Below are positions 1 to 24,400 of a stretch of 27,129 nucleotides of DNA, one piece after another (positions within the stretch are counted from its first letter, which is position 1; every line of letters starts with the position of its first letter). The DNA comes from a virus, in IMG/VR virus record IMGVR_UViG_3300012005_000043, positions 1-27,129 of that record. The stretch is one strand, 5' to 3'. Under the pieces are notes generated by a model, which saw nothing but the letters and a program-made list of their open reading frames with translations, was not told the origin of the DNA and did no database searches. A program made the position numbers and the translations under genes.

Positions 1-468
1 TATTAATTTGTTTTCTTTAGGGAAAAGTGTTTGATAAAAACTATAATCGAAACTAAGGGAAATAATATCTACTCCTAAATCTATTAATGCTTTATAACAG
101 TCAGTTATTTCTTGATAGTCTTTTCCTTGTACTACCCCTATAAATTTTGTAGGCAAATTTTTATACTCTTTTAAAAAATCTTCATAACCCCATACTGTCT
201 CTTTATAATTTTCAAGTACGTCTGGTACAATAGTATAAGTTGGAGAAAGTTTTTCTACCCATTTTGCAAACTTTTTCACATTATAGTGAGAGTTTAATTC
301 AAATACTGAGTTATCAAGAAATACTGTACGACCACTTAAAACACTTCTTCTATAATGATTATAATATTCAGGATGAGTTTCAAACAGATGTACAAGTGCG
401 TAACAGTAGTCATTAAACTTTAAACTCTCCTCTAGTAAACTTATTGGGCATTCATGCGATATTTGCAT
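1..468 (-). CDS. dpdA: DpdA-like DNA (TGT-family) guanine transglycosylase, partial
   Basis: This reading frame starts at an ATG (466-468) and stays open for 156 codons to the window edge, so the C-terminal part is missing. Visible motifs fit the tRNA-guanine transglycosylase fold as found in phage DpdA proteins: FLDNSVFEL early on, IVPDVLENYKET with an aspartate where the family has a catalytic or base-recognition one, then FIGVVQG, which matches the GVVQG loop of TGT enzymes. DpdA enzymes exchange guanine in DNA for a 7-deazaguanine base. The gene directly follows the gene at 469-768 and lies downstream of folE, queE and queD, which make the substrate. That context favours DNA over tRNA modification. 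The zinc site expected in the missing part cannot be checked, and subfamily assignment (DpdA1 or DpdA2) is not possible here. Confidence 0.72.
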   Translation of the reverse strand, partial: MQISHECPISLLEESLKFNDYCYALVHLFETHPEYYNHYRRSVLSGRTVFLDNSVFELNSHYNVKKFAKWVEKLSPTYTIVPDVLENYKETVWGYEDFLKEYKNLPTKFIGVVQGKDYQEITDCYKALIDLGVDIISLSFDYSFYQTLFPKENKLI

Positions 469-768
469 TTAGTAATTTATTTTTAGATAAGTGATAAGTG
501 ATTCTACAGTTTCTTTAAATGTTGTAACTGTTTTTGGTAATTCAAGTTCAAAGAACTCAACCTCTGTGGTATAGATAAATATAGAATATTTTTGTTCTTC
601 TTCTGGTTTTATTTCAAAAATTATCTTAAGATCTTTTATGTAGACTGTAAATTTGAGAGAAGATCCGTAATCTAAGGAATTTGCAAATGAAGTTAAATCC
701 TCAGTGTTCACTTCACCCTCCTCCTCTATTTTATAAACAATTGTGTCTATGTCTTTGAATATATCCAT
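469..768 (-). CDS. Unknown acidic small protein (99 aa)
   Basis: I do not recognise this protein. It is acidic, with runs such as KIEEEGE and KPEEEQ, and alternates short beta-like stretches (SLKFTVYIKDLKIIFEI) with a C-terminal helix (TFKETVESLITYLK). No cysteines, membrane segment or signal peptide are present. Its ATG abuts the stop codon of the MazG-like gene, and its own stop abuts the ATG of the DpdA-like gene, so it is translated as part of the deazaguanine/nucleotide operon. A role as an accessory or inhibitor-type protein is possible but nothing in the sequence shows it. Confidence 0.75.
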   Translation of the reverse strand: MDIFKDIDTIVYKIEEEGEVNTEDLTSFANSLDYGSSLKFTVYIKDLKIIFEIKPEEEQKYSIFIYTTEVEFFELELPKTVTTFKETVESLITYLKINY

Positions 769-1101
769 CTACCTGTTATCTCCACTTCCTGAAATTACAC
801 CTCTTAATTCTCTATCTCTACATTTTTTAATGTTCTCCATTGCAATAGTTTCAAAGTCAAGTCCTATATCTGAAAGGAATTTTGCAATATAGAATAATAC
901 ATCCCCTGTTTCTTTTCCTAATAGTTCTTTATCTTCTTCTGAAATAATTCCATTTTTATCTCTTACTATTTTTTTTATTTTCTCACTTATTTCGCCTGCT
1001 TCACCTAAGATGCCTAAGGTACTATACATTACTTCATTTATACCTGTAAGTTTAGTTATTGCAAGTTTTTGAACATTATTTTGATATTCGTTAAAGTTCA
1101 T
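769..1101 (-). CDS. MazG-like nucleotide pyrophosphohydrolase
   Basis: A single-domain, all-alpha NTP pyrophosphohydrolase of 110 residues, the usual size for MazG-like phage proteins. The metal-binding pattern is visible: E34-A-G-E37 in the first helix pair and E64-T-G-D67 in the second, followed by the helix DVLFYIAKFLSDIGL and a C-terminal GSGDNR, common in this family. Such enzymes hydrolyse (d)NTPs to monophosphate and pyrophosphate and may also act on ppGpp. It overlaps the HPRT gene upstream by 11 bases, implying coupled translation. In this operon it could clear an unwanted nucleotide or adjust the guanine nucleotide pool that feeds FolE. The substrate cannot be read from the sequence. 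Confidence 0.87.
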   Translation of the reverse strand: MNFNEYQNNVQKLAITKLTGINEVMYSTLGILGEAGEISEKIKKIVRDKNGIISEEDKELLGKETGDVLFYIAKFLSDIGLDFETIAMENIKKCRDRELRGVISGSGDNR

Positions 1102-1576
1102 ATATATCTGTTAAGTGTCTATTTTTTTGGTTATTATCAAGTCCGTACCCTACTAAAAATTTATCATCATTTACCTTAAATCCATAATAGTCTACTAAAT
1201 TTTCTGATCCTTCCCGTACTAATAATGAAACTACGAAAATATCTTCTACACCTTTCTTTAATAGTTCTATCATTATATTATTTAGAGTTACTCCAGTATC
1301 AATAATATCTTCAACTAATATTACTGTTTTCCCTTCAAAATTATTTTCAAGAAGATCAATTTTTAAAATTCCCCTTTCATTATTTTGATATGATTTAGCT
1401 TTTATAAATGCAACTTCACAATCAAGAGAAATTTTCTTTATTAAATCACTAAAGAACATAAAACTCCCGTTTAATATTCCTACCATGACTATGTCTTCAG
1501 AAGTAATTTTATTAAGTCCTTTTGCTATTAAAGATACTTTTTTGTTAATATCAGAGGAGGAAATTAGTTTTTTCAT
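1091..1576 (-). CDS. hpt: Hypoxanthine/guanine phosphoribosyltransferase
   Basis: Catalyses hypoxanthine or guanine plus PRPP to IMP or GMP. The 161-residue length is slightly below typical bacterial HPRT (about 175-185). The PRPP-binding motif is complete at residues 87-97 (LVEDIIDTGVT), preceded by the GILNGSFMF loop near residues 33-41 and a KAKSY segment, and followed by the C-terminal base-binding stretch FLVGYGLD and RHLTDIYEL. Its ATG overlaps the TGA of folE, and its 3' end overlaps the MazG-like gene. Salvage HPRTs are uncommon in phages. Beside a deazaguanine pathway and a base-exchanging transglycosylase, the attractive role is recycling the guanine set free by base exchange, but that is inference. 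Confidence 0.93.
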   Translation of the reverse strand: MKKLISSSDINKKVSLIAKGLNKITSEDIVMVGILNGSFMFFSDLIKKISLDCEVAFIKAKSYQNNERGILKIDLLENNFEGKTVILVEDIIDTGVTLNNIMIELLKKGVEDIFVVSLLVREGSENLVDYYGFKVNDDKFLVGYGLDNNQKNRHLTDIYEL

Positions 1577-2205
1577 TTTAAATCTCTTATAAAACTATAA
1601 AACTCATCTCTTGACTTATCATTATTATCCATAAATGCACCTGAAAGTTTTGAGGTTTTCATAGTAGAATTATGACCTATTCCCCTATTTGAGCAACAGG
1701 TGTGGTTTGCCTCTATCATGACCGCTACCCCTAGATTACCCTCACAAACTCTATTAATATGGTCATGGATTTGCATAGTTAAGTTTTCTTGAACCTGGGG
1801 TTTGCGGGCATGGTGGTCACAAATCCTATTAAGTTTAGATAAACCAATCACTTTCCCATCTTTACCAGGGAGGTACGCTACATGAGTAAATCCAGTAAAA
1901 GATAATAAATGGTGCGCACAAAGCGAAACTGTAGGAATTGCGAGCTGAGCCACCATTCCGTCATATTTATCTACATTTTCAAAACTTGTTATTTTAGGCT
2001 CAGGGTCATAGTTACCCTTACATAACTCATATACCATTGCCTTTATATAACGCTTTGGAGTATCCTGCATATTAGGGTCATGTTCCCAGTCATATCCAAG
2101 GTCCGACAAAACGGTACCGAAAGATTTTGATGCTTTCTCTATTATTTGTAGTTTTTCTTCCTCTGTTTTAGGAAAATTAGAATTAGATAGTTTCAGTTGT
2201 AGCAT
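1573..2205 (-). CDS. folE: GTP cyclohydrolase I
   Basis: Converts GTP to 7,8-dihydroneopterin triphosphate, the entry step of both folate and 7-deazaguanine synthesis. The 210-residue protein has the family's hallmarks: zinc ligands C96 and H99 in SLCAHHLLSF, a third ligand at C170 in NHTCCSNRG, the neighbouring catalytic histidines H98 and H168, and the substrate-binding GLSKLNRI and ARKPQVQENLT segments. The first 23 bases overlap the 3' end of the upstream unknown gene, and its TGA overlaps the HPRT start codon as ATGA. With queD and queE close by, it most likely supplies deazaguanine synthesis rather than folate; no other folate genes are seen. Confidence 0.96.
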   Translation of the reverse strand: MLQLKLSNSNFPKTEEEKLQIIEKASKSFGTVLSDLGYDWEHDPNMQDTPKRYIKAMVYELCKGNYDPEPKITSFENVDKYDGMVAQLAIPTVSLCAHHLLSFTGFTHVAYLPGKDGKVIGLSKLNRICDHHARKPQVQENLTMQIHDHINRVCEGNLGVAVMIEANHTCCSNRGIGHNSTMKTSKLSGAFMDNNDKSRDEFYSFIRDLK

Positions 2206-2626
2206 TTAAATATTTTTCTAAAATTTCGCCTTGTTGTTTTGCAATATCACCAGTCCAATCAATTTCATTAAAAGCTGGATGATGGCAATGTGGTACAAGT
2301 TTACAGTAGTACAAAGGTCTCGTTACACCCTTCTTCTTTTTTGGATCTTGTAATAATAATTCTGCCGGGGGACAGGCTGTTGCAAGTAGTAAACCTGATT
2401 GGCATAGTTTTACCAATTTTTCAAAGAATGTTTTACGGTTATTATCTGATAATAGGTAGTGGTACGTTTTCTTTACAGTTCCGTCCATTTCAATTGAATT
2501 CTCATAATTTGGTAGATGAGAATTGATAACCATTTGTGTTAGTGAATCTTCGGACAACATTTGCTCTTCTGAAAATGTTAGTTCGATGTAGTTAGTGGGT
2601 AAGTTTATATCTGTTTCTTCAGGCAT
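2183..2626 (-). CDS. Unknown Cys/His-containing protein in the deazaguanine operon (147 aa)
   Basis: I do not recognise this protein. The N-terminal 60 residues are acidic and polar. The middle (TFFEKLVKLCQSGLLLATAC) is more hydrophobic and may form a helix, but is too short and polar-flanked to call a membrane segment. The C-terminal half has a basic DPKKKKGVTRP loop and then YYCKLVPHCHHPAF, whose Cys/His cluster could bind a metal. It overlaps the upstream 66-residue gene by 22 bases and folE by 23 bases, so it is tightly coupled to the pathway genes. A role in deazaguanine chemistry or DNA modification is possible from position only. Confidence 0.72.
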   Translation of the reverse strand: MPEETDINLPTNYIELTFSEEQMLSEDSLTQMVINSHLPNYENSIEMDGTVKKTYHYLLSDNNRKTFFEKLVKLCQSGLLLATACPPAELLLQDPKKKKGVTRPLYYCKLVPHCHHPAFNEIDWTGDIAKQQGEILEKYLNATTETI

Positions 2627-2805
2627 AGTACTATCTGTTTTGAAAGGTTGTTACAAAGTTTGGTAATTTGTATAGTTATTTCTGTTGTGGTTTCCTTAGG
2701 TATATAAAGGTCGTAAAGTTTGGAGTCAATATCATAAACATACTTCCAATTATCTCCTACAATTTTTATCAAATCATTTTCAATTTTTATATCTAACTTT
2801 TTCAT
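2605..2805 (-). CDS. Unknown small protein (66 aa)
   Basis: A 66-residue protein of unknown function. It starts MKKLDIKIENDLIKIVGDNW, a beta-hairpin-like pattern, and ends in a predicted helix with two cysteines (ITKLCNNLSKQIVLCLKK). It starts 13 bases downstream of the queE stop and overlaps the next gene by 22 bases. Overlapping both ways with operon members supports it being a real gene, but its small size and lack of motifs leave room for doubt. Confidence 0.6.
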   Translation of the reverse strand: MKKLDIKIENDLIKIVGDNWKYVYDIDSKLYDLYIPKETTTEITIQITKLCNNLSKQIVLCLKKQI

Positions 2806-2818
2806 AACTTATTGATTA

Positions 2819-3685
2819 CTAAACGTTTAATGTCTTATCATACGCTGATATGTGCAAGCGGGTTAATCCTGTAAATCTATATTTTTTCGCCATTTCAAGT
2901 ACAAATTGAGTTCTCTCATGAAAATTTTCTCTGTCTACTAATGCAGGCATACAAACTACATTTTTAAGTGGTATATTAAAGGGGGTTACAAAATCACAAA
3001 ATAATTCTTTTATATCCTCTTCATTTGAAATTACAAACTTAAACTGATAATTATGATGTTCCATTATCCTTTTAATTGCTTCTGGAACTATTCTTTGCTT
3101 TTCAGTCATCCCTGAATTAGAAAGTTTTGGTGAGCAGTTAATTTGAGATAACCAACCAAATAAGTCTTCCTTTATATAAACTGTACCATTAGTTTCAATT
3201 TCATTAAAAGGGGTACAGGGTTTATTATCATATTCTTCATTACCAGTAACTCTATTATATTCCCATTCTGCAAAATAATTAATGAAATTAACAATAGATT
3301 CTTGATGTTTAACCATCGCTGGTTCACCCCCTGTCCAAATTATATGGACTATACCATCTAGTATATCTTCATAAATACCTTCTTCAATAAAACGGTCAAT
3401 TATATACTGGAATTCCTTATCTTCACCACGCCATGCCCATTGAGAAGTAGAATCACACGTCCAGGTTGCAAGTTTTTGTTCTTCAAGGTCTCCTATAAAT
3501 AACTCACCATCTGCAAGTGTTTTTTCTGTAATTAGCTTTTTAAGAAAACGGTTAGAAAAACCGCAGGTAAGGTTACATAATCCAAGACGGATAAAAAATG
3601 AAGGTACACCAGATGATTTACCTTCTCCCTGAACGCTAAAGAAATCTGAGGATATTAATAATTTATTTGGATCAATTTTACTCAT
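2819..3685 (-). CDS. queE: 7-carboxy-7-deazaguanine synthase, radical SAM
   Basis: Rearranges 6-carboxy-5,6,7,8-tetrahydropterin to 7-carboxy-7-deazaguanine (CDG). Family marks seen in the 288 residues are DFFSVQGEGKSSGVPSFFIRLG at the N-terminus, the radical SAM iron-sulfur cysteines C37 and C41 in CNLTC, a third cysteine C77 in WTCDS, the SAM-binding WTGGEPAM, IETNGT, and SPKLSNSG. The third cluster cysteine lies 35 residues after the second, instead of two as in the canonical CX3CX2C, so a loop is inserted within the cluster motif; QueE proteins with altered spacing are known. It is larger than many bacterial homologues (about 210-230). It lies between queD and folE, both pathway partners. 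Confidence 0.93.
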   Translation of the reverse strand: MSKIDPNKLLISSDFFSVQGEGKSSGVPSFFIRLGLCNLTCGFSNRFLKKLITEKTLADGELFIGDLEEQKLATWTCDSTSQWAWRGEDKEFQYIIDRFIEEGIYEDILDGIVHIIWTGGEPAMVKHQESIVNFINYFAEWEYNRVTGNEEYDNKPCTPFNEIETNGTVYIKEDLFGWLSQINCSPKLSNSGMTEKQRIVPEAIKRIMEHHNYQFKFVISNEEDIKELFCDFVTPFNIPLKNVVCMPALVDRENFHERTQFVLEMAKKYRFTGLTRLHISAYDKTLNV

Positions 3686-3688
3686 TAG

Positions 3689-3994
3689 TTATATTACTGT
3701 TATGTTCCACTTACTTTGAACCTTTCTCCGTATAGTTCTTTCTTTAGTACCTAGATCACGTTGCTTTTTTATAAAGTTATCCATTTTCTGGCGTTCGGGG
3801 GTAGGTATTTCAACCTCTAACTTTTTTATTTCAGACCGTGCAGTTTCAACTTCTTCATTAGTAGAATTAGTATTTTGAGCCGCTACTAATGCTTTTGTTA
3901 AGTTTTCGGCTGGATCTGTTTGGTTTTTATCAAACATTTTTACCCATTTTGCGGATTCACCATCCATTAAGTTATTAAAATTATTACTTGTCAT
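3689..3994 (-). CDS. Unknown small helical protein (101 aa)
   Basis: No family recognised. The N-terminal two-thirds is polar and rich in Asn, Thr, Glu and Lys with likely helices (ENLTKALVAAQ, EEVETARSEIKKLE). The C-terminus is strongly basic (KKQRDLGTKERTIRRKVQSK), which could contact nucleic acid or act as a helix-turn-helix-like tail. It has no cysteines or membrane segment. It starts 11 bases after the stop of the 93-residue gene and ends three bases before the queE ATG, so it belongs to the same transcript. Confidence 0.68.
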   Translation of the reverse strand: MTSNNFNNLMDGESAKWVKMFDKNQTDPAENLTKALVAAQNTNSTNEEVETARSEIKKLEVEIPTPERQKMDNFIKKQRDLGTKERTIRRKVQSKWNITVI

Positions 3995-4005
3995 AATTTA
4001 TTTTT

Positions 4006-4287
4006 TTATTTAAAACAATTTCTAAAAATCCCTTTATCCCAATCTACCACTAATTTTACTGTAGACTCATATTCATATTTAAAGCCTGTATCTTTAACTT
4101 TAAAGAGGTATTGCAGTTGTTCATTTATACAAAAACAACCAAGATCCATACCATCCTCAAGTATTACTGAAACAGAATCAAGTCCTTTATAATCAGGGTC
4201 TGGAAATATTTCATAAACAATCCCTACTAAATTATTGGGATTAAATTTATGGTCAACTTCGCAGATGGTACCGATTTTGAGGTTCAT
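4006..4287 (-). CDS. Unknown small beta-rich protein (93 aa)
   Basis: No family recognised. The alternating hydrophobic pattern (IGTICEVDHKFNPNNLVGIV, then DSVSVILEDGMDLGCFCI) suggests a small SH3-like beta barrel, as in several phage proteins that bind nucleic acid or partner proteins; this is only a pattern impression. Its ATG overlaps the TGA stop of queD (ATGA), which argues for translational coupling to the deazaguanine pathway. Confidence 0.7.
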   Translation of the reverse strand: MNLKIGTICEVDHKFNPNNLVGIVYEIFPDPDYKGLDSVSVILEDGMDLGCFCINEQLQYLFKVKDTGFKYEYESTVKLVVDWDKGIFRNCFK

Positions 4288-4832
4288 ATTTTACGGTCAT
4301 CATATTGTAAAACACCTTTATTATTAGAATATTCTTTTATTTCTTTTTTTCTAACACTTAACCAATTTTCTCTCTCATATTTTGAAATTGATTTTTTAGT
4401 ACAAGTAGTAGAACAATTTGGTGTTTCCCAGATTTTAACTTTATGAATTTTTAGTAAAGGGTAATTAGAAATTAATACCTCCATTGCTAAAAATACTTCT
4501 TTTGCAATATTTTCAACTGAAGGGTTGCAGTATTCATTTTCACCATTTAAAGACATTAACCAAAGTTTATTTTTTAAATCATTTATACACTTTATTAATA
4601 TAAAATCTTTTGGATTTAAAATCATACCATGGTCAAGAATATCATCTATCCATTGGCAACAAACCCTTTTTATTTCTTTAAAATCAATTGCATAACCAAT
4701 CTCTTCAGATTTTTCAAAAGAAAAAGAAAGTTTATATGAATAAAGATGTCCATGACAGTTAAAACATTTCATAGACTCATTCATAACCCTATGACCAGAA
4801 TCAAAACTGCCTTTACGTGTTATTATTTGCAT
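4284..4832 (-). CDS. queD: 6-carboxy-5,6,7,8-tetrahydropterin synthase
   Basis: Converts dihydroneopterin triphosphate, the product of FolE, to 6-carboxy-tetrahydropterin, the substrate of QueE. Members of the PTPS/QueD family carry three zinc histidines and a catalytic cysteine; here these are H14 (FDSGHRV), H27 and H29 (CHGHLY), and C23 four residues before the HGH. Other family signs are AIDFKEIK, LDHGMILN, NPSVENIAKEVF and the C-terminal IWETPNC glutamate. At 182 residues it is longer than most QueD proteins (about 120-140), mainly because of a charged C-terminal tail after about residue 150. A 15-base motif shared with two other sites lies 29 bases upstream of its ATG. Confidence 0.93.
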   Translation of the reverse strand: MQIITRKGSFDSGHRVMNESMKCFNCHGHLYSYKLSFSFEKSEEIGYAIDFKEIKRVCCQWIDDILDHGMILNPKDFILIKCINDLKNKLWLMSLNGENEYCNPSVENIAKEVFLAMEVLISNYPLLKIHKVKIWETPNCSTTCTKKSISKYERENWLSVRKKEIKEYSNNKGVLQYDDRKI

Positions 4833-4859: not shown

Positions 4860-4881
4860 ATAAAGAATTTATTTTAGATTT
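4860..4881. repeat. 22-base direct repeat, copy on the queD side of the endonuclease gene
   Basis: This stretch matches 5621-5642 in the same orientation at 21 of 22 positions. The two copies bracket the VSR-like endonuclease gene, and this copy covers its stop codon. The core 15 bases (AAAGAATTTATTTTA) occur a third time at 18342-18356. Possible explanations are duplication on insertion of the endonuclease gene, or a shared regulatory element. Confidence 0.7.
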
Positions 4882-5611
4882 ACAAATTATACTTATCAAT
4901 TGTTTTATTCATTGAGATTTGTAATTCCATCCATTTAATATCTTTTAATAATTCTACTTCATCAGTTAACATTGAGGTTTTAGTATTTCTTCTCCAATTC
5001 ATTAATTTACATTCTTCATATTTTGTTTTATCAACTACAATTAAAACTGGATTATCAGGATATGTTTGGGTTACCCAATCCATTTTCATATCAAATTCCC
5101 TCTTCCAATCTTCAAAAACATAACCACTAACCTCAACAAGTATATAATCTTCAATAATAAAATCTACTATTTTATATCTACCATTGAAAAGTTTATAAGG
5201 TATCTCTCTTGTAAATGAAATATTATTTTTCTTCAAAAATTTATAAAAAGAAACCTCCATTTGAGATCTAAAGGTTTCACCATCATATAAAACTTTGTTA
5301 TGGTAAAGTAATTTAGCGGGAGTTAATCTTTTTAATATTGAACTTTCAATATAGTTAGGGTTAGTTGGTCCACTTTGAAATCCATTTTTTATTTCATTCC
5401 TAGGTTTTTTAAAAAATTCTTCATAAGTTTTCCCTCTTTTATGACACCCTCTTGCTATTTTACAACCTGGGAACTTAACTATTCTACCACATCCACATTC
5501 ACAAGGTCTAAACTCCTTACATTCTTTACAATATATTGCTGTAGGGTAAGAAGTAATAAAATCCTTTTTACAAAGTATACAGTTCCTAACTTTTAAATCT
5601 AATTTTTTCAT
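4880..5611 (-). CDS. VSR-like PD-(D/E)XK homing endonuclease with N-terminal zinc fingers
   Basis: The N-terminal 60 residues hold metal-binding fingers: C11-x2-C14 with C28-x2-C31, then the CECGCG...GC...GCH pattern (C37, C39, C41, C50, H57) common in phage homing endonucleases. The second half resembles the very-short-patch-repair-like nuclease fold: E119 in RSQMEVSFYKFL, D150 in KIVDFII and E160 in ILVEVSGY form a plausible PD-(D/E)XK metal centre. Such free-standing enzymes (the I-Bth0305I type) spread by cutting unoccupied alleles. It lies between the zinc-ribbon gene and queD, flanked by near-identical direct repeats, as expected for an inserted mobile gene. It interrupts no recognised gene. 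It could instead be a repair nuclease. Confidence 0.78.
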   Translation of the reverse strand: MKKLDLKVRNCILCKKDFITSYPTAIYCKECKEFRPCECGCGRIVKFPGCKIARGCHKRGKTYEEFFKKPRNEIKNGFQSGPTNPNYIESSILKRLTPAKLLYHNKVLYDGETFRSQMEVSFYKFLKKNNISFTREIPYKLFNGRYKIVDFIIEDYILVEVSGYVFEDWKREFDMKMDWVTQTYPDNPVLIVVDKTKYEECKLMNWRRNTKTSMLTDEVELLKDIKWMELQISMNKTIDKYNL

Positions 5612-5620
5612 ACAATATTT

Positions 5621-5642
5621 ATAAAGAATTTATTTTATATTT
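5621..5642. repeat. 22-base direct repeat, copy on the RNR side of the endonuclease gene
   Basis: Partner of 4860-4881 (21 of 22 positions identical, same orientation). This copy covers the stop codon of the zinc-ribbon gene and lies 9 bases upstream of the endonuclease ATG. If the repeat arose by insertion, the ancestral order would have been zinc-ribbon, one repeat, queD. Confidence 0.7.
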
Positions 5643-5812
5643 TCGTATGAAATAGTATCAGACTCTGTAGTCGTAAAACTTTCTTGGCACTTTTTACAAA
5701 CATAAAACCACCATTTTAAAATTTTTCCTCTACTTTTTAAGTCCCTCTCTTCAAGTTCTACAGATTTACCACTACAAAAAGGACATTGCACTATTTCAAC
5801 TGGTTTCTCCAT
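5630..5812 (-). CDS. Small zinc-ribbon protein beside ribonucleotide reductase (60 aa)
   Basis: Two cysteine pairs, C10-x2-C13 (QCPFCSG) and C39-x2-C42 (VCKKCQ), separated by a charged and aromatic linker, form a typical zinc ribbon. The second knuckle continues ESFTTTES, which recalls the FTTFE after the zinc ribbon of NrdR, the repressor of ribonucleotide reductase genes, but the ATP-cone domain of NrdR is absent. MqsA/YgiT-type zinc ribbons look similar, so the resemblance is weak. Its ATG overlaps the TAA stop of the reductase by one base, so it is co-translated with it. A regulatory or DNA-binding role is possible; the function is unproven. Confidence 0.75.
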   Translation of the reverse strand: MEKPVEIVQCPFCSGKSVELEERDLKSRGKILKWWFYVCKKCQESFTTTESDTISYENIK

Positions 5813-8055
5813 TACTTAAATTTTTCTAAATATTCTGCAGGCATCTCGCACTGGGAACCTGTACAGCTTGCAGACCCCATTGTATCAACATCTGTGTAGG
5901 TTGGTTTTAAGTTTGCTTTTGAGAAGTCAATCGGTTTTAATTCTCTATGAATTTCTGTCCATTTATGATATAAATAAACGTCCTTTAAACAGTAAGACAT
6001 TTGTAAAACATCATTTTTAAAGTATCTCTTTGCAAATTGTTTTGCCCGCCTTAACCAGTCTTTCTTTAATAATACTTCACGTTTGGTTCCTTCAAGTTTT
6101 GTAGTTCTGTTTACTACATAATTAGTTGCTATCCATAAATCATCAAAGTCATAAAGTGCATCTGTAATTAACCCTGCTGCAAAAATTGAGGCATCCCCGT
6201 ACTTTGCAAGTATTTTTTCAGGAGTAAGTACTGAGGTAAATGGTGCCTGTTTGTAGTCTTTATCTCCAAATTTTCCTAAAAATGAAACTCCCGTATAAAA
6301 TTGTTTATTTTCATATACATAATCTCGTACCTCATCCCAATTTTCTACCTCTACAGTATTTGATACATTATGTCTTAAGTATGGTTTTACACAAGCTTCA
6401 ACTCGAGTACCGTATTCTACCCAATTTTGTTGGATTTTTTTAACTATTTCAAGTTGTTTTACCCCTACTAAATCCTTCTTATAAATTGACCCCTTTTTAG
6501 AGGTAACTGGTATATAAACTACATAATCTGATTTTGTAGAAGACCATACAGATTCTTCAATTAAAAAAGGATACTGGTCATTTAGTATTTTTCCTATTTC
6601 AGACTCTTTATTTATCTGCATTAATCTAAAATAATCTTCATCATGTTCACCGTGGCAACCAGATGCAGTTTCAAGTAGCACACTCGAGTTACCTTCAGGT
6701 TTCACACAAGTAGTTCTTGCTGCTGGTTTAATACCTATTATTTTTGCAACTTCTTCATTTATTTTTAAAACAAGTTTTGCACCATCTTGCATATTTTTTT
6801 CATCTAATAAGATTTCAGGATTATTCATCCACCCAGTTATTGAAACACCTAATAGTGCTTCTCTATCAAAAATCTCCTTAGATTCTTTTGAAACATATTT
6901 GAAATCTGTATATGCTGCCTGTAAAGTGCCAATTACTGCCATACCTATACAGGCTTGTAATAACTTTTCTCTACTATTTAGTTTACTACCATTTGCACTT
7001 GAAAGATTACACCCTTGCCATCCTGAACGACCGTCTTCTGTCTTTGGATATAGTGAAATTTCTACGCACGGGTTAGTTCCTTGATCTAAATCATCAACAA
7101 AATAAAAACCTGGTTCACCAAAATCTTTAATACAACTAAATATTTTATCAAATTCTTCCTTTGATGTTTCTTCACGTATTAGTACAACTGAATTATTAGA
7201 TCTTGCACGTTGTTTATTAATACCTCCTTGTGGATTAAAGTTTGGATAAACTTTTGAGTTCATCATCCCTTCATCTTCTTTAGAAAATAAACATATTGTT
7301 GCAGATCTCCTTACCCCTCCTGATAACACTGCATCTGCCATGTGGCAAACTATATCATAACTATCAATTGGTTCTAATTTACTTTTACCTTCTTTTAAAA
7401 TTTTATTTAATAATTCCTCTACTTTCTCTATTGATTGTTTTAATCCATCAGATCCTGGTGCTTTAAAACCACCAGTTATCATTGCACCCTTTGGTCTAAT
7501 TAATGAATAGTCAAAATATACTTTATAACCTCTATAATCTTTGAAAGTATTTTTATTCTCAAAAAATGATGAAAGTAATACTCCAAAAGAATCTGCCCAA
7601 CCCTCAACTGAGTCCTCAATTATATAAGTTTTAGTTCCTTTTGTACGTTCTTTTATATTAGGAAGTTTGTTATTATGTTTTAATTGAACTGAAAATCCTA
7701 CTCCACATCCACAAAGTAACCAATACATTGCTTCTTGAAAAAACTCAGGTCTATCACAATGAGAGTTTAAACAGTTAAACATCTTACTATTATGCTTCAT
7801 AATTGGACTACCTCCAAATTGAAGTGCACGTTGAGAACCTATAATTACTTTATCAAGGTAAAGTTGTTCTGTTAAGTTAAATAACTCATTAAATCTTTCG
7901 TTTTTAAATGACTCTTGGAATTTTGGATGGTTTCGGTGCATTGTCATTACACGCTTAACGCTGTCTTCCCACGTTTCTACAGATTGTTTTTCTTCGTTGT
8001 ATTTTGCATAATCTAAATAATATTTTATATCGCTTGCGAGTTTTGTACCCTTCAT
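5812..8055 (-). CDS. nrdJ: Adenosylcobalamin-dependent (class II) ribonucleoside-triphosphate reductase
   Basis: Reduces ribonucleotides to deoxyribonucleotides using a B12-derived radical. At 747 residues it matches the monomeric Lactobacillus-type enzyme (about 739). Key residues are visible: the first redox cysteine C95 (MFNCLNSH), the thiyl-radical cysteine C330 (NPCVEISL), the partner C349 (GCNLSS), the phosphate loop KPEGNSSV, and the C-terminal redox pair C731 and C736 in SCTGSQCEMP. No separate radical-generating subunit or activase is nearby, as expected for class II. It follows the polymerase genes after an 82-base gap and overlaps the zinc-ribbon gene by one base. The host must supply cobalamin. 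Whether the substrate is NTP or NDP cannot be told; length and architecture favour NTP. Confidence 0.95.
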   Translation of the reverse strand: MKGTKLASDIKYYLDYAKYNEEKQSVETWEDSVKRVMTMHRNHPKFQESFKNERFNELFNLTEQLYLDKVIIGSQRALQFGGSPIMKHNSKMFNCLNSHCDRPEFFQEAMYWLLCGCGVGFSVQLKHNNKLPNIKERTKGTKTYIIEDSVEGWADSFGVLLSSFFENKNTFKDYRGYKVYFDYSLIRPKGAMITGGFKAPGSDGLKQSIEKVEELLNKILKEGKSKLEPIDSYDIVCHMADAVLSGGVRRSATICLFSKEDEGMMNSKVYPNFNPQGGINKQRARSNNSVVLIREETSKEEFDKIFSCIKDFGEPGFYFVDDLDQGTNPCVEISLYPKTEDGRSGWQGCNLSSANGSKLNSREKLLQACIGMAVIGTLQAAYTDFKYVSKESKEIFDREALLGVSITGWMNNPEILLDEKNMQDGAKLVLKINEEVAKIIGIKPAARTTCVKPEGNSSVLLETASGCHGEHDEDYFRLMQINKESEIGKILNDQYPFLIEESVWSSTKSDYVVYIPVTSKKGSIYKKDLVGVKQLEIVKKIQQNWVEYGTRVEACVKPYLRHNVSNTVEVENWDEVRDYVYENKQFYTGVSFLGKFGDKDYKQAPFTSVLTPEKILAKYGDASIFAAGLITDALYDFDDLWIATNYVVNRTTKLEGTKREVLLKKDWLRRAKQFAKRYFKNDVLQMSYCLKDVYLYHKWTEIHRELKPIDFSKANLKPTYTDVDTMGSASCTGSQCEMPAEYLEKFK

Positions 8056-8137: not shown

Positions 8138-10168
8138 TTATAATATAGTGAGAGTAGTATCGTTTGTGGTATGTATAACTTGTTTTTTCTTATAATTATC
8201 AGTTACCACTTTTCCTTTTATAAAACATATTGAACCAATATTTTCTTTTAATTCTTTGTAATAAGTTTCATAACTCTCATTCCACATTGTTACATAAGTA
8301 GTTACAAAATTTTCTTCAAGTGCAATCTGACAAAATGGACCTCGTTTGGATTTACGTTCTATAATTTCTTTAATACACCCTCCAACTATTACTTCTTTAT
8401 CTTGAAGTTTTGCATTTTCTTGAAGTGAATCTCCTGAGATATATTGGGTAACAAATTTCTTAAATTCTGATGTTTTTAGTACTGAAAAAAAATTTATGAA
8501 ACCAAAACCAGTCAACTCCCTCTGTCTTATTATCCATTTATATTCTGGCCACCTTTTATACTCATCAAGTTCTGGTAACAGTTTTTTATTATTTGACTGT
8601 ACGTAATATTGAACTAGTAACCTATATCTATCTTTAATATCTACAATTTTTTCAATTTCATCAAAGGCACCTGCAAAAATTAAGTTTTCAACAGAACGTT
8701 TGTTTACTTTACGTTTTTCAACTCGTTCTACAAATTCTTCCAATGAAAAATATTCTCCATCCTCTTCACGCCATGCAGTTACTTCTTCTACTGCAATTTT
8801 TCCTACCCATTTTATTGAGTTTAATGACCAGTATATTTTTTGTGTATTAATATCTGGGTAAAAAGAATCTTTTGACTTATTTATATCAACTGGTGATACG
8901 GTTACTTTACCTAATTTTTCAATCTCTGCAATTTTTTGTATTAACTCATCTGATTCTGAGAACTCAAGTGCAGTTGTCCAAAATTCAAGTGGGTAGTTGT
9001 ACTTATACCACTGACTGTAATAACCTAGTAATGAATAACATACAGAATGTGATAAATTGTACGTATAGCAGCCAAACCCACATAACTTCTCCCAAATTGC
9101 ATTTGCCTCATCTTCAGGACAATTATTTTTTAAGCATCCACTTATAAATTGATCTTCATATTTTTTAAGTGCTGCAGGTGACTGGAGAACCATTGCTTTT
9201 CTTATACTATCCGCTTCTGTTAATGTAAAGCCACCTAATATTGTGGTAATAGACATAATCTGCTCCTGATAAATAGGGAATCCGTAAGTTTCTTTGGTCA
9301 AGTCCTCAAGCATATAATCATACTTAATTTCTTTCTCACCCTTCTTTACCTTTATCAGGTCTATATGAGCATTCATAGATATAGGACCTGGGCGATATAC
9401 TGCAGCAATTAAAGATAGTTCTGAGACATTTGAAGGCCTGAAATCTTTACAGTATTGTATTAATCCGGAAGATGTGAATTGGAATACATCCTGATTTAAG
9501 CCTTCTTTAAACAGGTCAAAAACACCCTCATTTTCAAGGTCAATATCATCATAAGTCAACTGTTTTCCTGTATGAAGAAATATTAATTCATTCATACGCT
9601 GAAATTTATCCAGTTGCTGAAGTCCTAGTATATCGAATTTTAAGAAGCCCATTGAAGAGATTCCATATACATTCCATTCTGAAACTATTTGCCCATCAAC
9701 TTTTTTAACAGGCATCCAAGTTGAGATATCTTTATAATATCCCTCTTTAGTTTCTTTTGGTGTTATTATTGTACCGGAAGCATGAATTGAAGCAGTTGAA
9801 GGACCGTTTAATATAAGTGGTAGTTTTTCAATGATATGAGGATAATTTTGTACAAATTCCCTTAACATTGGTACATCTTTTGCATTTTTAAAGAGTTCTG
9901 TATAGTCACCTTTTGCATCAATAACAGAAGTAATATAGTTAGATTTTTGTGATTCTATACCATATTCTCTATTTAATGCCTTTACTGCTGCTTTTATTTT
10001 AAAAGCGTTATATGAACCCATTCCAGTAACAAAACCAAGACCATATTTATCTCGTATATACTGTTCTGCAATAGGTTTCATTTTTGTACCGAAGTCACAA
10101 TCAATATCAGGAAGTGAAGAGGCGACTACTTTTTGACGTTCTTCTTCTTTTATTTTTATTACCTTCAT
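8138..10168 (-). CDS. dnaE: DNA polymerase III alpha subunit, C-terminal fragment (catalytic)
   Basis: This is the C-terminal half of a DnaE-type replicative polymerase, 676 residues. It begins with a short lead (MKVIKIKEEERQKVVASS) and enters the palm at LPDIDCDFG, with catalytic D21 and D23; the third catalytic aspartate is D179 in FLKFDILGL. Later family motifs are IHASGTIITP, VYRPGP, YGFPIYQEQIM, YNLSHSVCYSLLGYY, helix-hairpin-helix-like segments near residue 480 and an OB-fold-like C-terminus from about 590 (VIVGGCIKEI). The PHP domain and the first palm motif are encoded by the separate upstream gene at 10206-11843, 37 bases away in another frame. The two products presumably associate, or are joined, to form the enzyme. 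Confidence 0.95.
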   Translation of the reverse strand: MKVIKIKEEERQKVVASSLPDIDCDFGTKMKPIAEQYIRDKYGLGFVTGMGSYNAFKIKAAVKALNREYGIESQKSNYITSVIDAKGDYTELFKNAKDVPMLREFVQNYPHIIEKLPLILNGPSTASIHASGTIITPKETKEGYYKDISTWMPVKKVDGQIVSEWNVYGISSMGFLKFDILGLQQLDKFQRMNELIFLHTGKQLTYDDIDLENEGVFDLFKEGLNQDVFQFTSSGLIQYCKDFRPSNVSELSLIAAVYRPGPISMNAHIDLIKVKKGEKEIKYDYMLEDLTKETYGFPIYQEQIMSITTILGGFTLTEADSIRKAMVLQSPAALKKYEDQFISGCLKNNCPEDEANAIWEKLCGFGCYTYNLSHSVCYSLLGYYSQWYKYNYPLEFWTTALEFSESDELIQKIAEIEKLGKVTVSPVDINKSKDSFYPDINTQKIYWSLNSIKWVGKIAVEEVTAWREEDGEYFSLEEFVERVEKRKVNKRSVENLIFAGAFDEIEKIVDIKDRYRLLVQYYVQSNNKKLLPELDEYKRWPEYKWIIRQRELTGFGFINFFSVLKTSEFKKFVTQYISGDSLQENAKLQDKEVIVGGCIKEIIERKSKRGPFCQIALEENFVTTYVTMWNESYETYYKELKENIGSICFIKGKVVTDNYKKKQVIHTTNDTTLTIL

Positions 10169-10205
10169 GCCTCAAAATTAATATTTTTCTTTTCTACTAA
10201 TTTAT

Positions 10206-11843
10206 TTATTGCAAAATAAGTTCATCATCTTCAACTAAATCCTTAGCAAGAATATCATATAAAATACCCCCTCTTTTTACCTCAACCATAGAATCCTCAT
10301 CAAATTCTTTAATTGTACCATCTTCAAGTTCTATAAAGTAGTGTTGGTATTTTACATCTTTAAAACGACCGTCATTCAAAAAACGTTCAAATAGTAAATG
10401 GTACTTAACTGGATCAGAATTTGAAGTTATATTTAAAAGGTGTGCTATCAAGCATCCTGCTGCCGACCCACGGCCTAATCCTATTAATGCACCCTGTTCT
10501 CTACAGTGCCTCAATACATCCGCCAATATCAGAAAATAATCCTGAAAACCCCCTTTATTTATAGTTTCAAGTTCAGTCTCAAGTCTTTTATAGTATAAAT
10601 CTTCATCAAGTCCCCTACCTAAAACATATTTCTCAAAACCTTTTTCTATCAAATCATAAAAAAGATCCTCATTTGTTGCATACTTTTGACTCTCCTCCTC
10701 TGTCATTATATATTTTGGAAGAAACAAATTACCTGTACGGATTTTAAATGTACATAGTTCACCAACGTTCTTTGTATTATCGGCCGCTTCATAAAATAGT
10801 TCATACTGCCGGTCATCCTCAGAATTGAAAAGAGAAGACATTTGTGTATATATCTCCTCTCCTGATTTAAACCATTGGTCTGAGGATTGTGGTTTAAAAC
10901 CTACCCCTACTATTTTATTGAGAATTTTTTTGACTTCGTGGTCTGAGGCATCAAGGTAATAGGCATCTTGAATTAATATTGGACGTATTTTTTGTTTGTA
11001 GTTCTCAAAGTATGCCTTAATATTTTCTAACCACTTTGTATCCCTGTCATTTGAAGACCATTCTGTAAAATCAAGTTGGTAGTATAGATGTTCAAAGATT
11101 GAATACTTTTTAAGAAGAACATCAGTTAACTCAATTTCTGGTGTAAGTACACATACTAATCCTCTAGCGTATTTTTTTAGTTCTTCAAATGGTATTACTT
11201 TGTCAATTATGGTTTCTCCGTTACAATTTATATAATTAGAAATTTTGAGTAAATTATCCCAGCCCCTATCATTTATAACATAGAGTTTAATATTATATCG
11301 CTCTCCATTTTCAAGTACTGTAACAGTTTCCCCAATTATTGGTCTAATGTTTTCCTCCTCACAAATTCCTTGAAAAGAAAGTGAACCGGCTAATGTATTT
11401 TCCTCACAAACTGCAAGTATTTTATACCCTAAAAATTTTGCTTTTTTACACCATTCAGAATAATCTTTTGAACCATTCCCTAGTTCATAACCCCCATGTA
11501 TTCCAAGGTATGGAAAGTCAAAGGTAAGTTCATCAGAACATTTACCTATATGTTTAAAAAGTTCAAACTTTGGTTCAAAAGGGTCACAATGATAATAAAA
11601 ATTACCAAATTGGAAGACAACTTTACCTACACCGTTTTCTCGTATAAATTCTATTTCTTCTGCTGTATAGTAAAATTCAAAGTTTCTATCAACAAGTAGT
11701 TCACGTTCTACCCCGTCTATTTCTACAGTTTTTGGGTAAATTACCTTGTATAAAATTTTGTCAAGGTAAAATAAATCGTAGTCAATGAAATCTACATCAA
11801 GACGATTTTCTTTAATCCAATCTTCTAGTGATACTAATTCCAT
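10206..11843 (-). CDS. dnaE: DNA polymerase III alpha subunit, N-terminal fragment (PHP and first palm motif)
   Basis: This 545-residue protein is the N-terminal part of a DnaE polymerase. Residues 1-110 are an unrecognised extension. A PHP domain follows (LGIHGGYELGNGSKDYSEW, AVCEENTLAGSLSF, RPIIGETV), but the metal-binding HxHxxYS and DHG signatures are replaced by GIHGGYE and CEENT, so phosphoesterase activity is probably lost. The start of the palm is intact: GLGRGSAAGCLIAHLL at 455-470 and LLFERFLN at 483-490. The last 55 residues do not match DnaE; they contain ELEDGTIKEF and AKDLVEDDELI, a pattern reminiscent of Hint/intein beta strands. The gene ends in TAA before the catalytic aspartates, which lie in the downstream gene. 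It overlaps the kinase gene by 10 bases. Confidence 0.93.
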   Translation of the reverse strand: MELVSLEDWIKENRLDVDFIDYDLFYLDKILYKVIYPKTVEIDGVERELLVDRNFEFYYTAEEIEFIRENGVGKVVFQFGNFYYHCDPFEPKFELFKHIGKCSDELTFDFPYLGIHGGYELGNGSKDYSEWCKKAKFLGYKILAVCEENTLAGSLSFQGICEEENIRPIIGETVTVLENGERYNIKLYVINDRGWDNLLKISNYINCNGETIIDKVIPFEELKKYARGLVCVLTPEIELTDVLLKKYSIFEHLYYQLDFTEWSSNDRDTKWLENIKAYFENYKQKIRPILIQDAYYLDASDHEVKKILNKIVGVGFKPQSSDQWFKSGEEIYTQMSSLFNSEDDRQYELFYEAADNTKNVGELCTFKIRTGNLFLPKYIMTEEESQKYATNEDLFYDLIEKGFEKYVLGRGLDEDLYYKRLETELETINKGGFQDYFLILADVLRHCREQGALIGLGRGSAAGCLIAHLLNITSNSDPVKYHLLFERFLNDGRFKDVKYQHYFIELEDGTIKEFDEDSMVEVKRGGILYDILAKDLVEDDELILQ

Positions 11844-14617: not shown

Positions 14618-14658
14618 TGGTTGATAATTACTAATTATTTACTATATGGTTGATAATT
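14618..14658. repeat. 12-base direct repeat at the endonuclease/primase junction
   Basis: TGGTTGATAATT occurs at 14618-14629 (the leader of the primase) and at 14647-14658 (the last codons of the GIY-YIG gene), 29 bases apart and in the same orientation. It may be a trace of the event that placed the endonuclease gene here, in which the primase leader was duplicated, but chance is not excluded in AT-rich DNA. Confidence 0.5.
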
Positions 14659-15690
14659 TGGATTAGATCTACATAATTTCTGATGTCTATCAAAATTACT
14701 ACAACTAAAAATACCATTACAAAATTCACAAACCTTTGTCTTAGTTTTATATATTCTTACTTCTTTACTTTTTCTTAAACAATATTCTGTATGTCTATTA
14801 TAGTTACCTTTACCTTTTATTTTTTTATCACAAATTTCACAAGTAAAAACTGGGTATAAAAGTGCAGCTTCTTTTTGCCTTTGTATTTTTAGTTCTAAAA
14901 GTTCAGGATTATCTTCATAAAACTTTTTCCTTTTTTCAGTAGCTTTTTTTTGAATTTCAGGGTTTTCTTTAAAAAGTTTTTTTCTATGTTCACCTTGTTT
15001 TTTACCTTCTTCAGGATTATCTTTAAAAAATTGACTTCTTTTTTTACCTCTTTTAATTAATTCCTCAGGATTATTTTTAAAAAATTCATTAATACCTCTT
15101 TTATGTTTCTCTTTAAACTCAGGATCTTCAAATTTTTTTTTAGTTACTTCACTTTTCTTTTTAATATGTTCAGGATCTTTACATTTTTCCTTTGACTTTT
15201 CACTTACCTTTATTCTTGCCTCAGGGTTATCAATATAATGTTGTGCTATTTTAATTCCATTTTCTTTTGAAAACTCGGGATTATCTTTTAAAAATTGCCT
15301 CCTCCTTTCACTATGAGCTATAAGAAATTCAGGGTTATTTTCATAAAATTGAATATGACTTATACTTAATTTTAATATTGTTTCTTCAGTAGGAATATAA
15401 CCAATACAACCACCCCCACCAGCAGTTTTATTATACCCAATAAGTGGGTTATTTGCATCGTAAAATTTTACCCAGTATTTTTCTTTATCACTTAATTCTT
15501 CTCTTAAACAAAACTCTAAGGTTTCACAATAAAAATTTTCTTTACCAAATTCTTTAATTGCTTCCCTTAACTCTCTTCCTGAACCAATATATTTATCATT
15601 TAAATTATCAGTACGGTGCTGACCAGTATAGATCTTACCATTAACAAGGTTAGTGGTTTTATAAATAAGATTATATTTATGTATTTTCAT
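14635..15690 (-). CDS. GIY-YIG homing endonuclease with NPE-repeat array and zinc fingers
   Basis: The N-terminal 100 residues form a GIY-YIG nuclease domain: YNLIYKTTNLVNGKIYTGQH, KYIGSG, an FGKENF segment and KEKYWVKFY. Residues of about 115-270 are some nine tandem units of 17-19 residues with the core NPE (for example KDNPEEGKKQGEHRKKLF), probably helical, DNA-binding, and related in style to NUMOD repeats. The C-terminus has two C2HC-type fingers (CEICDKK...HTEYC and CEFCNGI...HQKLC). It lies exactly between helicase and primase, its ATG abutting the helicase stop codon. It starts with ATG while its neighbours use TTG, supporting a separate origin. It interrupts neither gene and contributes to no known replication step. 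Confidence 0.88.
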   Translation of the reverse strand: MKIHKYNLIYKTTNLVNGKIYTGQHRTDNLNDKYIGSGRELREAIKEFGKENFYCETLEFCLREELSDKEKYWVKFYDANNPLIGYNKTAGGGGCIGYIPTEETILKLSISHIQFYENNPEFLIAHSERRRQFLKDNPEFSKENGIKIAQHYIDNPEARIKVSEKSKEKCKDPEHIKKKSEVTKKKFEDPEFKEKHKRGINEFFKNNPEELIKRGKKRSQFFKDNPEEGKKQGEHRKKLFKENPEIQKKATEKRKKFYEDNPELLELKIQRQKEAALLYPVFTCEICDKKIKGKGNYNRHTEYCLRKSKEVRIYKTKTKVCEFCNGIFSCSNFDRHQKLCRSNPNYQPYSK

Positions 15691-17031
15691 TTATCCAAAT
15701 AACTCATGTGTACGTTTTGCATCAAAAAATCTACTAGAAGATAAAGCTTGACAAATTGACCAAGGTTCTGGTGGTGCAAAGTGTTTCCTAAACTTATCAG
15801 CATATATTCTTATAACTCCCTCGCTTTTTTCGTCTGATGTCTGATTTAAAGTAAGGAAAGCTGCAAAAGGCGCTATAGCGCTTTTATATTCTGCAATATG
15901 GTGTCTTGTTAATACTTTTGCAGGGTTTTCATAAAAATCAGGAGCTATGTCATTGGATTGTGTCGCCGTAGCTACACCGCAGTGAAATTTTGTTGAAATA
16001 TTAACTATTCTATTTCCTAAATCCGCTCTCCGTCTTCTCTCTGACCCATCATCTTTCCCATAACTACCCTTTACTGTAAAAATTTCAAGATAATCAAGTA
16101 TTACTAAATCTATTTTACCATAAATTGATTCTATATCTGTTAATACTTCATATACCTCGTTGATTGACATCTGGTCAAACTCTTCTTTTGCGTAAGTGAA
16201 TATTTCCCCTCCACTTATTAATACATCACGCTGGAATTTTTCTATACCCTTACGTTTTGATTCTGGTAGAACCCCAAGTTCTATATCTTCAAGATCAATT
16301 GATGTCCAGGCACTATCATAAAGTTCTTTTACTTCTTTTTTGGTTCCTTCTGCCTGGAAATGTACTACCCTTTTACCTAATCTTGCATTTGAAAGTCCTA
16401 TCCATTTTAAATATGTTGACTTACCACCACCTGAACGGGCTAATATACAAATTGCTGTACCGTATTCAAAACCACCTCTTGTGGCGTCATCAATGCCTGG
16501 TATACCGTATGTGCATTTTTCTGTTAAAACACTGTGGTCTGCATTTTTAGACCTTTCTTGGTGTCGGGTTTCAAAATCATGGAAGATTCTATCGTAATAT
16601 GTTTCTTTTAATGAGAACTCATTTATTGAAGTTGATTCTTGTGCAAGTAATTGGTAGGCTTCATCATGTTTTCCTAGATTAAATAGTTCTCCTAGTGATG
16701 AGTAAAGTATGCGGAATTTTTTTTCCTTAATAAAATCTTGTAATGAAGTTAGTAAGTGTTCATGATTAGTTTCTTTAACTTTTTTTACTTGTGAGAGTAA
16801 TGAGATAAATTTTTCATCTTTAGAAAATGTTTGGGAAAGTATACCAAAAGTTGGTAATTTAGTACTATCTAAGTCATTTAGTTCAAAGATATATTTGAAA
16901 AATTTCTTCTGAGTTTCATTTTCTAAATATTGGTACTTAAGATGAGATTTACAGATCTCAAGTATTTTTTGAGATTGTAAACAGGACTTGGAAAGTTCAA
17001 GAACAAAGTCTTGTGTTAGTTGTTGAGCCAA
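15691..17031 (-). CDS. Replicative DNA helicase, DnaB-type, TTG start
   Basis: An ATP-driven hexameric helicase of the RecA/DnaB fold, 446 residues. An N-terminal helical domain (about 1-150) precedes the ATPase core: GIPGIDDATRGGFEYGTAI, Walker A ARSGGGKST (K204), the VVHFQAEG strand, Walker B LVILDYLEIF, and the sensor-like VATATQSN. The C-terminal IYADKFRKHF fits the arginine-finger/DNA-binding region. An in-frame TAA lies two codons upstream of the TTG (17029-17031), and no ATG occurs until about residue 285, inside the ATPase domain, so TTG must be the start. It abuts the GIY-YIG gene downstream, followed by the primase. Confidence 0.92.
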   Translation of the reverse strand: MAQQLTQDFVLELSKSCLQSQKILEICKSHLKYQYLENETQKKFFKYIFELNDLDSTKLPTFGILSQTFSKDEKFISLLSQVKKVKETNHEHLLTSLQDFIKEKKFRILYSSLGELFNLGKHDEAYQLLAQESTSINEFSLKETYYDRIFHDFETRHQERSKNADHSVLTEKCTYGIPGIDDATRGGFEYGTAICILARSGGGKSTYLKWIGLSNARLGKRVVHFQAEGTKKEVKELYDSAWTSIDLEDIELGVLPESKRKGIEKFQRDVLISGGEIFTYAKEEFDQMSINEVYEVLTDIESIYGKIDLVILDYLEIFTVKGSYGKDDGSERRRRADLGNRIVNISTKFHCGVATATQSNDIAPDFYENPAKVLTRHHIAEYKSAIAPFAAFLTLNQTSDEKSEGVIRIYADKFRKHFAPPEPWSICQALSSSRFFDAKRTHELFG

Positions 17032-24080: not shown

Positions 24081-24400
24081 TAGTCTATGTATAAATTATA
24101 TAATAAATCTCCATTTTCATCAATTTCGTAGAAGGAGCCATCGCCTGAGGTTAATGTTTGAAATAATTGTCCCGCTTCATCAATAAACCAGTTTACATTT
24201 CTGTTGTACTTTTTTAATCCAAAAACAAGGTCTGCTTGATTAACTTTTAGTTTATCAAGTACAAAGTTTATATCTGATAGGGTTGCAAAAAAAGTGTCTG
24301 GTAAACAGTTTTCATTTAAGAAATATATATGTTGGAGTTCTGCAGTAGAATTTTGGAAGTACGAATTCTTACTGTAAGTGCTGATTAATTTCTGTTGCAT
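24080..24400 (-). CDS. Unknown small protein in the baseplate region (106 aa)
   Basis: A 106-residue protein of unknown function, acidic at the C-terminus (SGDGSFYEIDENGDLLYNLYID). The N-terminal half looks helical (LQHIYFLNENCLPDTFFATL). It overlaps both neighbours by one base, which couples it to the tail genes. A minor baseplate component is a reasonable guess from position. Confidence 0.7.
   Translation of the reverse strand: MQQKLISTYSKNSYFQNSTAELQHIYFLNENCLPDTFFATLSDINFVLDKLKVNQADLVFGLKKYNRNVNWFIDEAGQLFQTLTSGDGSFYEIDENGDLLYNLYID

Follow-up and report, generated by a model that had tools for sequence, protein, structure and literature searches.

The modification locus

The IMG/VR virus record IMGVR_UViG_3300012005_000043 is a fragment of 27,129 bases, here called the window, one end of which falls inside a dpdA gene. 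Nearly all of its likely genes lie on the minus strand, which also holds every listed gene of a 7-deazaguanine DNA modification set at positions 1..4832 (Table 1). FolE, QueD, QueE and a DpdA-like reading frame open at the contig end were found where a preliminary description, made from the sequence alone, had placed them, as were five interleaved open reading frames (ORFs) without assigned function. Its view of the locus as a phage set for 7-deazaguanine DNA modification with a DpdA-family enzyme is supported by the gene families and by the tRNA-guanine transglycosylase (TGT) fold of an ortholog. Two genes inside the set had gone unnamed; they encode a MazG-like protein and a protein resembling hypoxanthine-guanine phosphoribosyltransferase (HGPRT), and the latter gene overlaps folE by 4 bases. 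We consider it probable (about 0.6) that the window combines a base-exchange set, of the type that we take to be DpdA3, with HGPRT-like guanine salvage that feeds GTP back to FolE.

The genes for synthesis of 7-carboxy-7-deazaguanine (CDG) are complete in the window. QueE, which had no Pfam match and was identified through phrog_2076, has its three cluster cysteines (CNLTC, then WTC past an insert), a layout shared with the QueE of halovirus HCTV-5. None of the five interleaved ORFs had a match in PHROGs.

The window contains 156 of the about 262 residues of DpdA (~60% of the gene); the contig ends before the remainder. The nearest relatives of this protein are a full-length protein of 262 residues at locus L001 of another contig, G001 (83% identity), the enzyme of Flavobacterium phage immuto that is annotated as a DNA guanine transglycosylase (46.5%), and homologs from Firehammervirus phages of Campylobacter (45-47%). 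Profile searches were less informative: the PHROG family, phrog_19058, is annotated there as unknown, the NCBIfam DpdA profile NF041059 matches the L001 protein weakly, and PF01702 was unusable as a detector, finding no DpdA in 6 phages that include ones known to have it. A model of the L001 protein built from 27 homologs (pLDDT 93, pTM 0.90) has a TGT fold, with Z about 18 over 227-232 residues against tRNA-guanine transglycosylases and a Foldseek E of 6e-7 against the DNA preQ0 insertase DpdA (7ui4). D52, D83, Q114 and D207 (L001 numbering) are invariant across 27 DpdA3-type sequences; the window protein has the first three, and the position of D207 lies past the contig end. The preliminary description had made its assignment depend on TGT/DpdA active-site residues in a full-length first gene, and the L001 ortholog, as a proxy, keeps the invariant Asp and Gln residues, D207 included. 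On this modeled fold, the window enzyme is a DpdA-family transglycosylase predicted to exchange bases in DNA. Enzymes of the DpdA3 subfamily can reportedly bring about full replacement of guanine.

Downstream of dpdA3, a gene for an AAA_28 (NadR-like) kinase starts within less than 900 nt in 68 of the 72 loci with room for it (among L007-L086); in the remaining four it starts no more than about 7 kb away. DpdA3 relatives also occur in six bacterial genome records (L229-L234), mostly contigs of metagenome-assembled genomes, possibly as prophages or as phage contigs binned with bacteria.

Table 1. Features of the modification set and the gene next to it in the window
Feature	Position	Strand	Evidence
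DpdA (DpdA3-type) DNA guanine transglycosylase, 5' part	1..468	-	46% to immuto/Firehammervirus homologs; 83% to L001 ortholog
99-aa protein without assigned function	469..768	-	L001 counterpart 79%; no PHROG match
MazG-like nucleotide pyrophosphohydrolase	769..1101	-	PF03819 3e-7; phrog_229 6e-29; 51% to L001
HGPRT-like phosphoribosyltransferase	1091..1576	-	PF00156 6e-22; TIGR01203 1.7e-36; PDB HPRT 3ohp 6e-23
FolE, GTP cyclohydrolase I	1573..2205	-	PF01227 7e-45
147-aa protein without assigned function	2183..2626	-	L001 counterpart 78%; no phage-collection match
66-aa protein without assigned function	2605..2805	-	L001 counterpart 67%; no PHROG match
QueE	2819..3685	-	phrog_2076 3e-36; 34% to HCTV-5; three cluster Cys
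101-aa protein without assigned function	3689..3994	-	no L001 counterpart found; no PHROG match
93-aa protein without assigned function	4006..4287	-	L001 counterpart 82%; no PHROG match
QueD, 6-carboxytetrahydropterin synthase	4284..4832	-	PF01242 4e-26; TIGR03367 5e-16
Endonuclease-like protein adjoining queD	4880..5611	-	weak resolvase-type match phrog_190 2e-5; no Pfam match; absent from G001

A phosphoribosyltransferase gene beside folE

Matches to HPRT span nearly the full length of the window phosphoribosyltransferase, and the phosphoribosyl pyrophosphate (PRPP) motif EDIIDTG is present. By these family matches the enzyme is HGPRT-like, with guanine as its putative substrate; guanine is the substrate common to the HPRT and XGPRT families. 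Short phosphoribosyltransferases (130-186 aa) are frequent among DpdA3 loci, a set that includes many near-duplicates, and their genes mostly lie directly beside folE, with a gap of <=72 nt or an overlap of a few bases (the window, L002, L009, L019-L021, L027, L028, L030, L047, L059, L060, L076 and L207). At L208 and L029 the neighbor is queE or queD. Both types occur, HPRT-like in the window, L009, L020/L021, L030, L047, L059, L076 and L111, and XGPRT-like in immuto, L018, L019, L027, L028, L060, L078 and more, where four were typed by family matches that all fall short of the curated cutoffs, and the others by sequence likeness. The folE genes adjoining the two types form one clade (support 100/99), and therefore one type of phosphoribosyltransferase presumably replaced the other in place.

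Among DpdA3 records larger than 90 kb, 11 of 14 have the short enzyme; those without it are CP220, G016 and G009, the last of which ends short of the site that holds the gene in its near-identical relative G010. For comparison we used 36 control records, nearly all of them large phages picked by thymidylate synthase. Matches to PF00156 were split by frame length, as many of those in large phages have the ~300-aa length of PRPP synthetase, and raw counts are misleading. The short enzyme was present in three of the five controls with QueD, and a short purine phosphoribosyltransferase in none of the 31 without QueD (Fisher 0.0014, a value whose true weight is less, since G040 and G041 are closely related and resemble immuto, and near-duplicates are numerous among the controls). 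These data bear on the possibility that the enzyme serves general purine salvage, raising the supply of deoxynucleoside triphosphates or GTP with no specific tie to base exchange. The location of the gene among nucleotide-metabolism genes would fit such a role, but the tight link to folE, queE and DpdA phages, together with the absence of the enzyme from QueD-less large control phages carrying thyA, makes it rather doubtful.

An XGPRT query matched 16 of 50,697 annotated phage records. Twelve are phage genomes, from the immuto group (4), the group of phiST (5), Brevundimonas phages (2) and Synechococcus phage BUCT-ZZ01 (1); the other four are contigs from fecal samples or short ones from sets of E. 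coli and Salmonella. Each of the four groups to which the 12 genomes belong has a TGT-like gene, judged from one member per group: the gene is annotated in immuto, matches the DpdA3 profile in phiST, and was recognized by motif only in Brevundimonas phage StAshley (MDNSIVEL, LPD, TQG and LLG) and in BUCT-ZZ01 (DSGGLQ, FDE and TQG). The XGPRT gene adjoins folE in StAshley and lies between queE and queD-folE in BUCT-ZZ01.

The phosphoribosyltransferase might instead charge the 7-deazaguanine base itself; kinases and the ribonucleotide reductase of the phage would then convert the resulting ribonucleotide to a modified dGTP for the polymerase, with little or no part for DpdA. HGPRTs set a catalytic Asp against N7, where deazaguanine bases bear their C7 substituent, and this speaks against such a route, as does the TGT-like enzyme in every phage genome with an XGPRT. 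On the other side, genes for ribonucleotide reductase, a deoxynucleoside monophosphate kinase and MazG lie nearby in the window, the kinase gene follows dpdA3 in 68/72 loci, and for Campylobacter phages a route through modified dGTP has been put forward (PMC6884629). Since the phosphoribosyltransferase is accompanied throughout by a TGT-like enzyme, we regard this route as less likely than guanine salvage and, on the whole, as improbable.

Two of the XGPRT loci contain further genes of note. In StAshley (L207:6605-7405), the protein that shows the DpdA motifs in series, listed as hypothetical, is encoded between queE and a DNA polymerase gene and is not annotated as DpdA. The cluster in BUCT-ZZ01 (L208:11048-17982) runs queE-XGPRT-queD-folE, followed by the unannotated TGT-like protein (15161-16411), and also encodes two proteins that by eye resemble glycosyltransferases, possibly pointing to a glycosylated deazaguanine.

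Judged from gene families, the pairing of a phosphoribosyltransferase gene with guanine-replacement genes recurs in related viruses, and we found no description of it; full-text searches of the literature gave no stated link of phosphoribosyltransferase or guanine salvage with phage deazaguanine or DpdA.

Related systems, exchanged alleles and the expected base

The modification system itself is ordinary, and the phosphoribosyltransferase and the allele replacement described below are the additions beyond known sets. Exchange of guanine in viral DNA for a modified base is known as a way of withstanding enzymes of the bacterium. The set of phage immuto (NC_055915) comprises DpdA, FolE, QueD, QueE, QueF and a phosphoribosyltransferase, with QueC elsewhere in the genome. 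It resembles the window in its DpdA, in folE lying beside the gene of a guanine-type phosphoribosyltransferase and in that one block holds both queD and queE. However, immuto has an XGPRT-type enzyme, a PurN-like formyltransferase and a family A polymerase. In the window the phosphoribosyltransferase is of the HPRT type, QueE and QueD differ from those of immuto, and a split C-family enzyme stands at the place of the polymerase. Firehammervirus CP220 shares with the window a DpdA (45% identical) and QueD and also has QueC, but its genes are scattered and neither a PF00156 phosphoribosyltransferase nor QueF was found. The dG+ pathway of Enterobacteria phage 9g likewise includes FolE, QueD, QueE and a DpdA (PMC6884629). 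Unlike that of the window, the 9g DpdA is of the DpdA1 type, accompanied by Gat-QueC and not matched by the DpdA3 profile, and no phosphoribosyltransferase is listed in the 50 kb shown.

The contig G001 is syntenic with the window, and their proteins are mostly 73-97% identical. The values are 24% for QueE, 33% for QueD and 51% for both FolE and MazG, and in this comparison G001 had no counterpart of the phosphoribosyltransferase or the 101-aa gene. In trees, the L001 QueE groups with that of another relative, L054 (97/91), the window QueE groups with HCTV-5/phiSM (89/89, moderate support on long branches), and the window QueD stands apart. Tree positions and identities thus indicate that L001 keeps the usual alleles of the lineage and that the window acquired others gene by gene: queD and queE have apparently been replaced, while most of the genes between them were kept. 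Four of the five interleaved ORFs are 67-82% identical to L001. Because they follow the genome backbone and not the enzymes, these ORFs are poor candidates for modification enzymes, which weakens the idea that they take part in the modification chemistry. Endonuclease-like genes adjoin the swapped genes, beside queD in the window (4880-5611) and beside folE in L001 (6303-7364), and a transfer of the swapped alleles by homing is suggested.

Which base the phage would carry depends on the genes beyond the contig end. The preliminary description had noted that QueC was not in view and had named CDG in the DNA as one option, should the genome lack QueC, and preQ0 or a derivative as the other. The first point holds for the 27,129-base record but weighs little, because the record is a fragment cut inside dpdA. 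It could be added in favor of CDG that contig G001 (54.7 kb) has no QueC either and that dCDG is reportedly a phage base. However, both contigs end inside or close behind dpdA, and QueC was found in 20 of the 23 DpdA3 records tested, often far from dpdA; these include immuto, CP220 and all records larger than 90 kb, and the three others are fragmentary records of 55-86 kb. QueF was found in 25 of 29 DpdA3 records. At L054 an unbroken order of dpdA3, AAA_28 kinase, mazG, queF, queC, queD, queE, folE and polymerase III alpha is seen, with a QueF that falls under the Pfam threshold and was recognized by its similarity to immuto QueF; L054 also has homologs of the window primase, helicase and polymerase. 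We therefore reject the absence of QueC as evidence for CDG, whose presence in the DNA of this phage appears highly improbable, and expect from these gene sets a preQ1-type base. Locus L088 (G023) was considered as a longer relative and discarded; what it shares is limited to a ParB-like gene and one further weak match, and it gave no match to QueC.

The window has further homing-endonuclease genes at 14635-15690 and 24400-25875 (phrog_314, phrog_655), the latter akin to the HNH gene that adjoins folE in L001. The ribonucleotide reductase gene of L001 (1-2736) is broken by an intein-like insert that carries an endonuclease-like ORF, and the window copy (5812-8055) is without insert. The C-family DNA polymerase of the window is encoded by two ORFs (8138-11843) that break just ahead of the catalytic PDIDxDF motif; the last ~50 residues of the first resemble an intein fragment, and the second opens with ~15 extra residues. 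The polymerase of G001 is split in the same way, and that of L054 is in one piece, with an intein-like insert at another place. The window also encodes a 60-aa zinc-finger-like protein (5630-5812) that weakly matches Lar-like restriction alleviation proteins (phrog_599, 2e-5).

A predicted guanine loop

In the mechanism that we propose, FolE, QueD and QueE would convert GTP to CDG, which QueC and probably QueF, encoded past the contig end, would turn into a preQ1-type base. DpdA3 would then exchange guanine in the phage DNA for this base, and each base inserted would release one guanine and cost one GTP. The HGPRT-like enzyme from the same gene string would return the released guanine to GMP and hence to GTP, the substrate of FolE.

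Several observations weigh against this proposal. The window HGPRT scores 125.5 bits, below the 150-bit curated cutoff of TIGR01203, and neither QueC nor QueF is seen in the window record, which is a fragment. DpdA1-type phages were without such a phosphoribosyltransferase in the searches made; the DpdA1 scan yielded seven loci, and none of the 18 records matched by an HPRT query in the phage collection is named as a phage of this type. L001 has an HNH gene at the place of the window phosphoribosyltransferase, and CP220, whose group is reported to be highly modified with dADG (PMC6884629), has no PF00156 gene. Since both do without the enzyme, salvage is not essential.

A broader form of the proposal is that phages that heavily replace guanine encode their own guanine phosphoribosyltransferase, gained at least two times (HPRT and XGPRT) beside folE, and so close a guanine loop. 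We put this forward tentatively, with confidence just short of even. The amounts involved may be large. With complete replacement, a 165-kb genome at 31% GC would release about 51,000 guanines, and 100 progeny in a 1-fL cell, as assumed here, would bring guanine, which is nearly insoluble, to ~8 mM, with an equal amount of GTP spent. To our knowledge, the fate of the guanine released in such phages has not been raised as a question in the literature.

The recurrent phosphoribosyltransferase would offer an easily testable answer to this question and could help to predict heavily modified phages. It would also allow phrog_19058 (DpdA3) to be labeled, along with these phosphoribosyltransferases, which are listed without such a role. 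If our proposal is true, the guanine loop would be a part of phage DNA modification that has so far gone unnoted.

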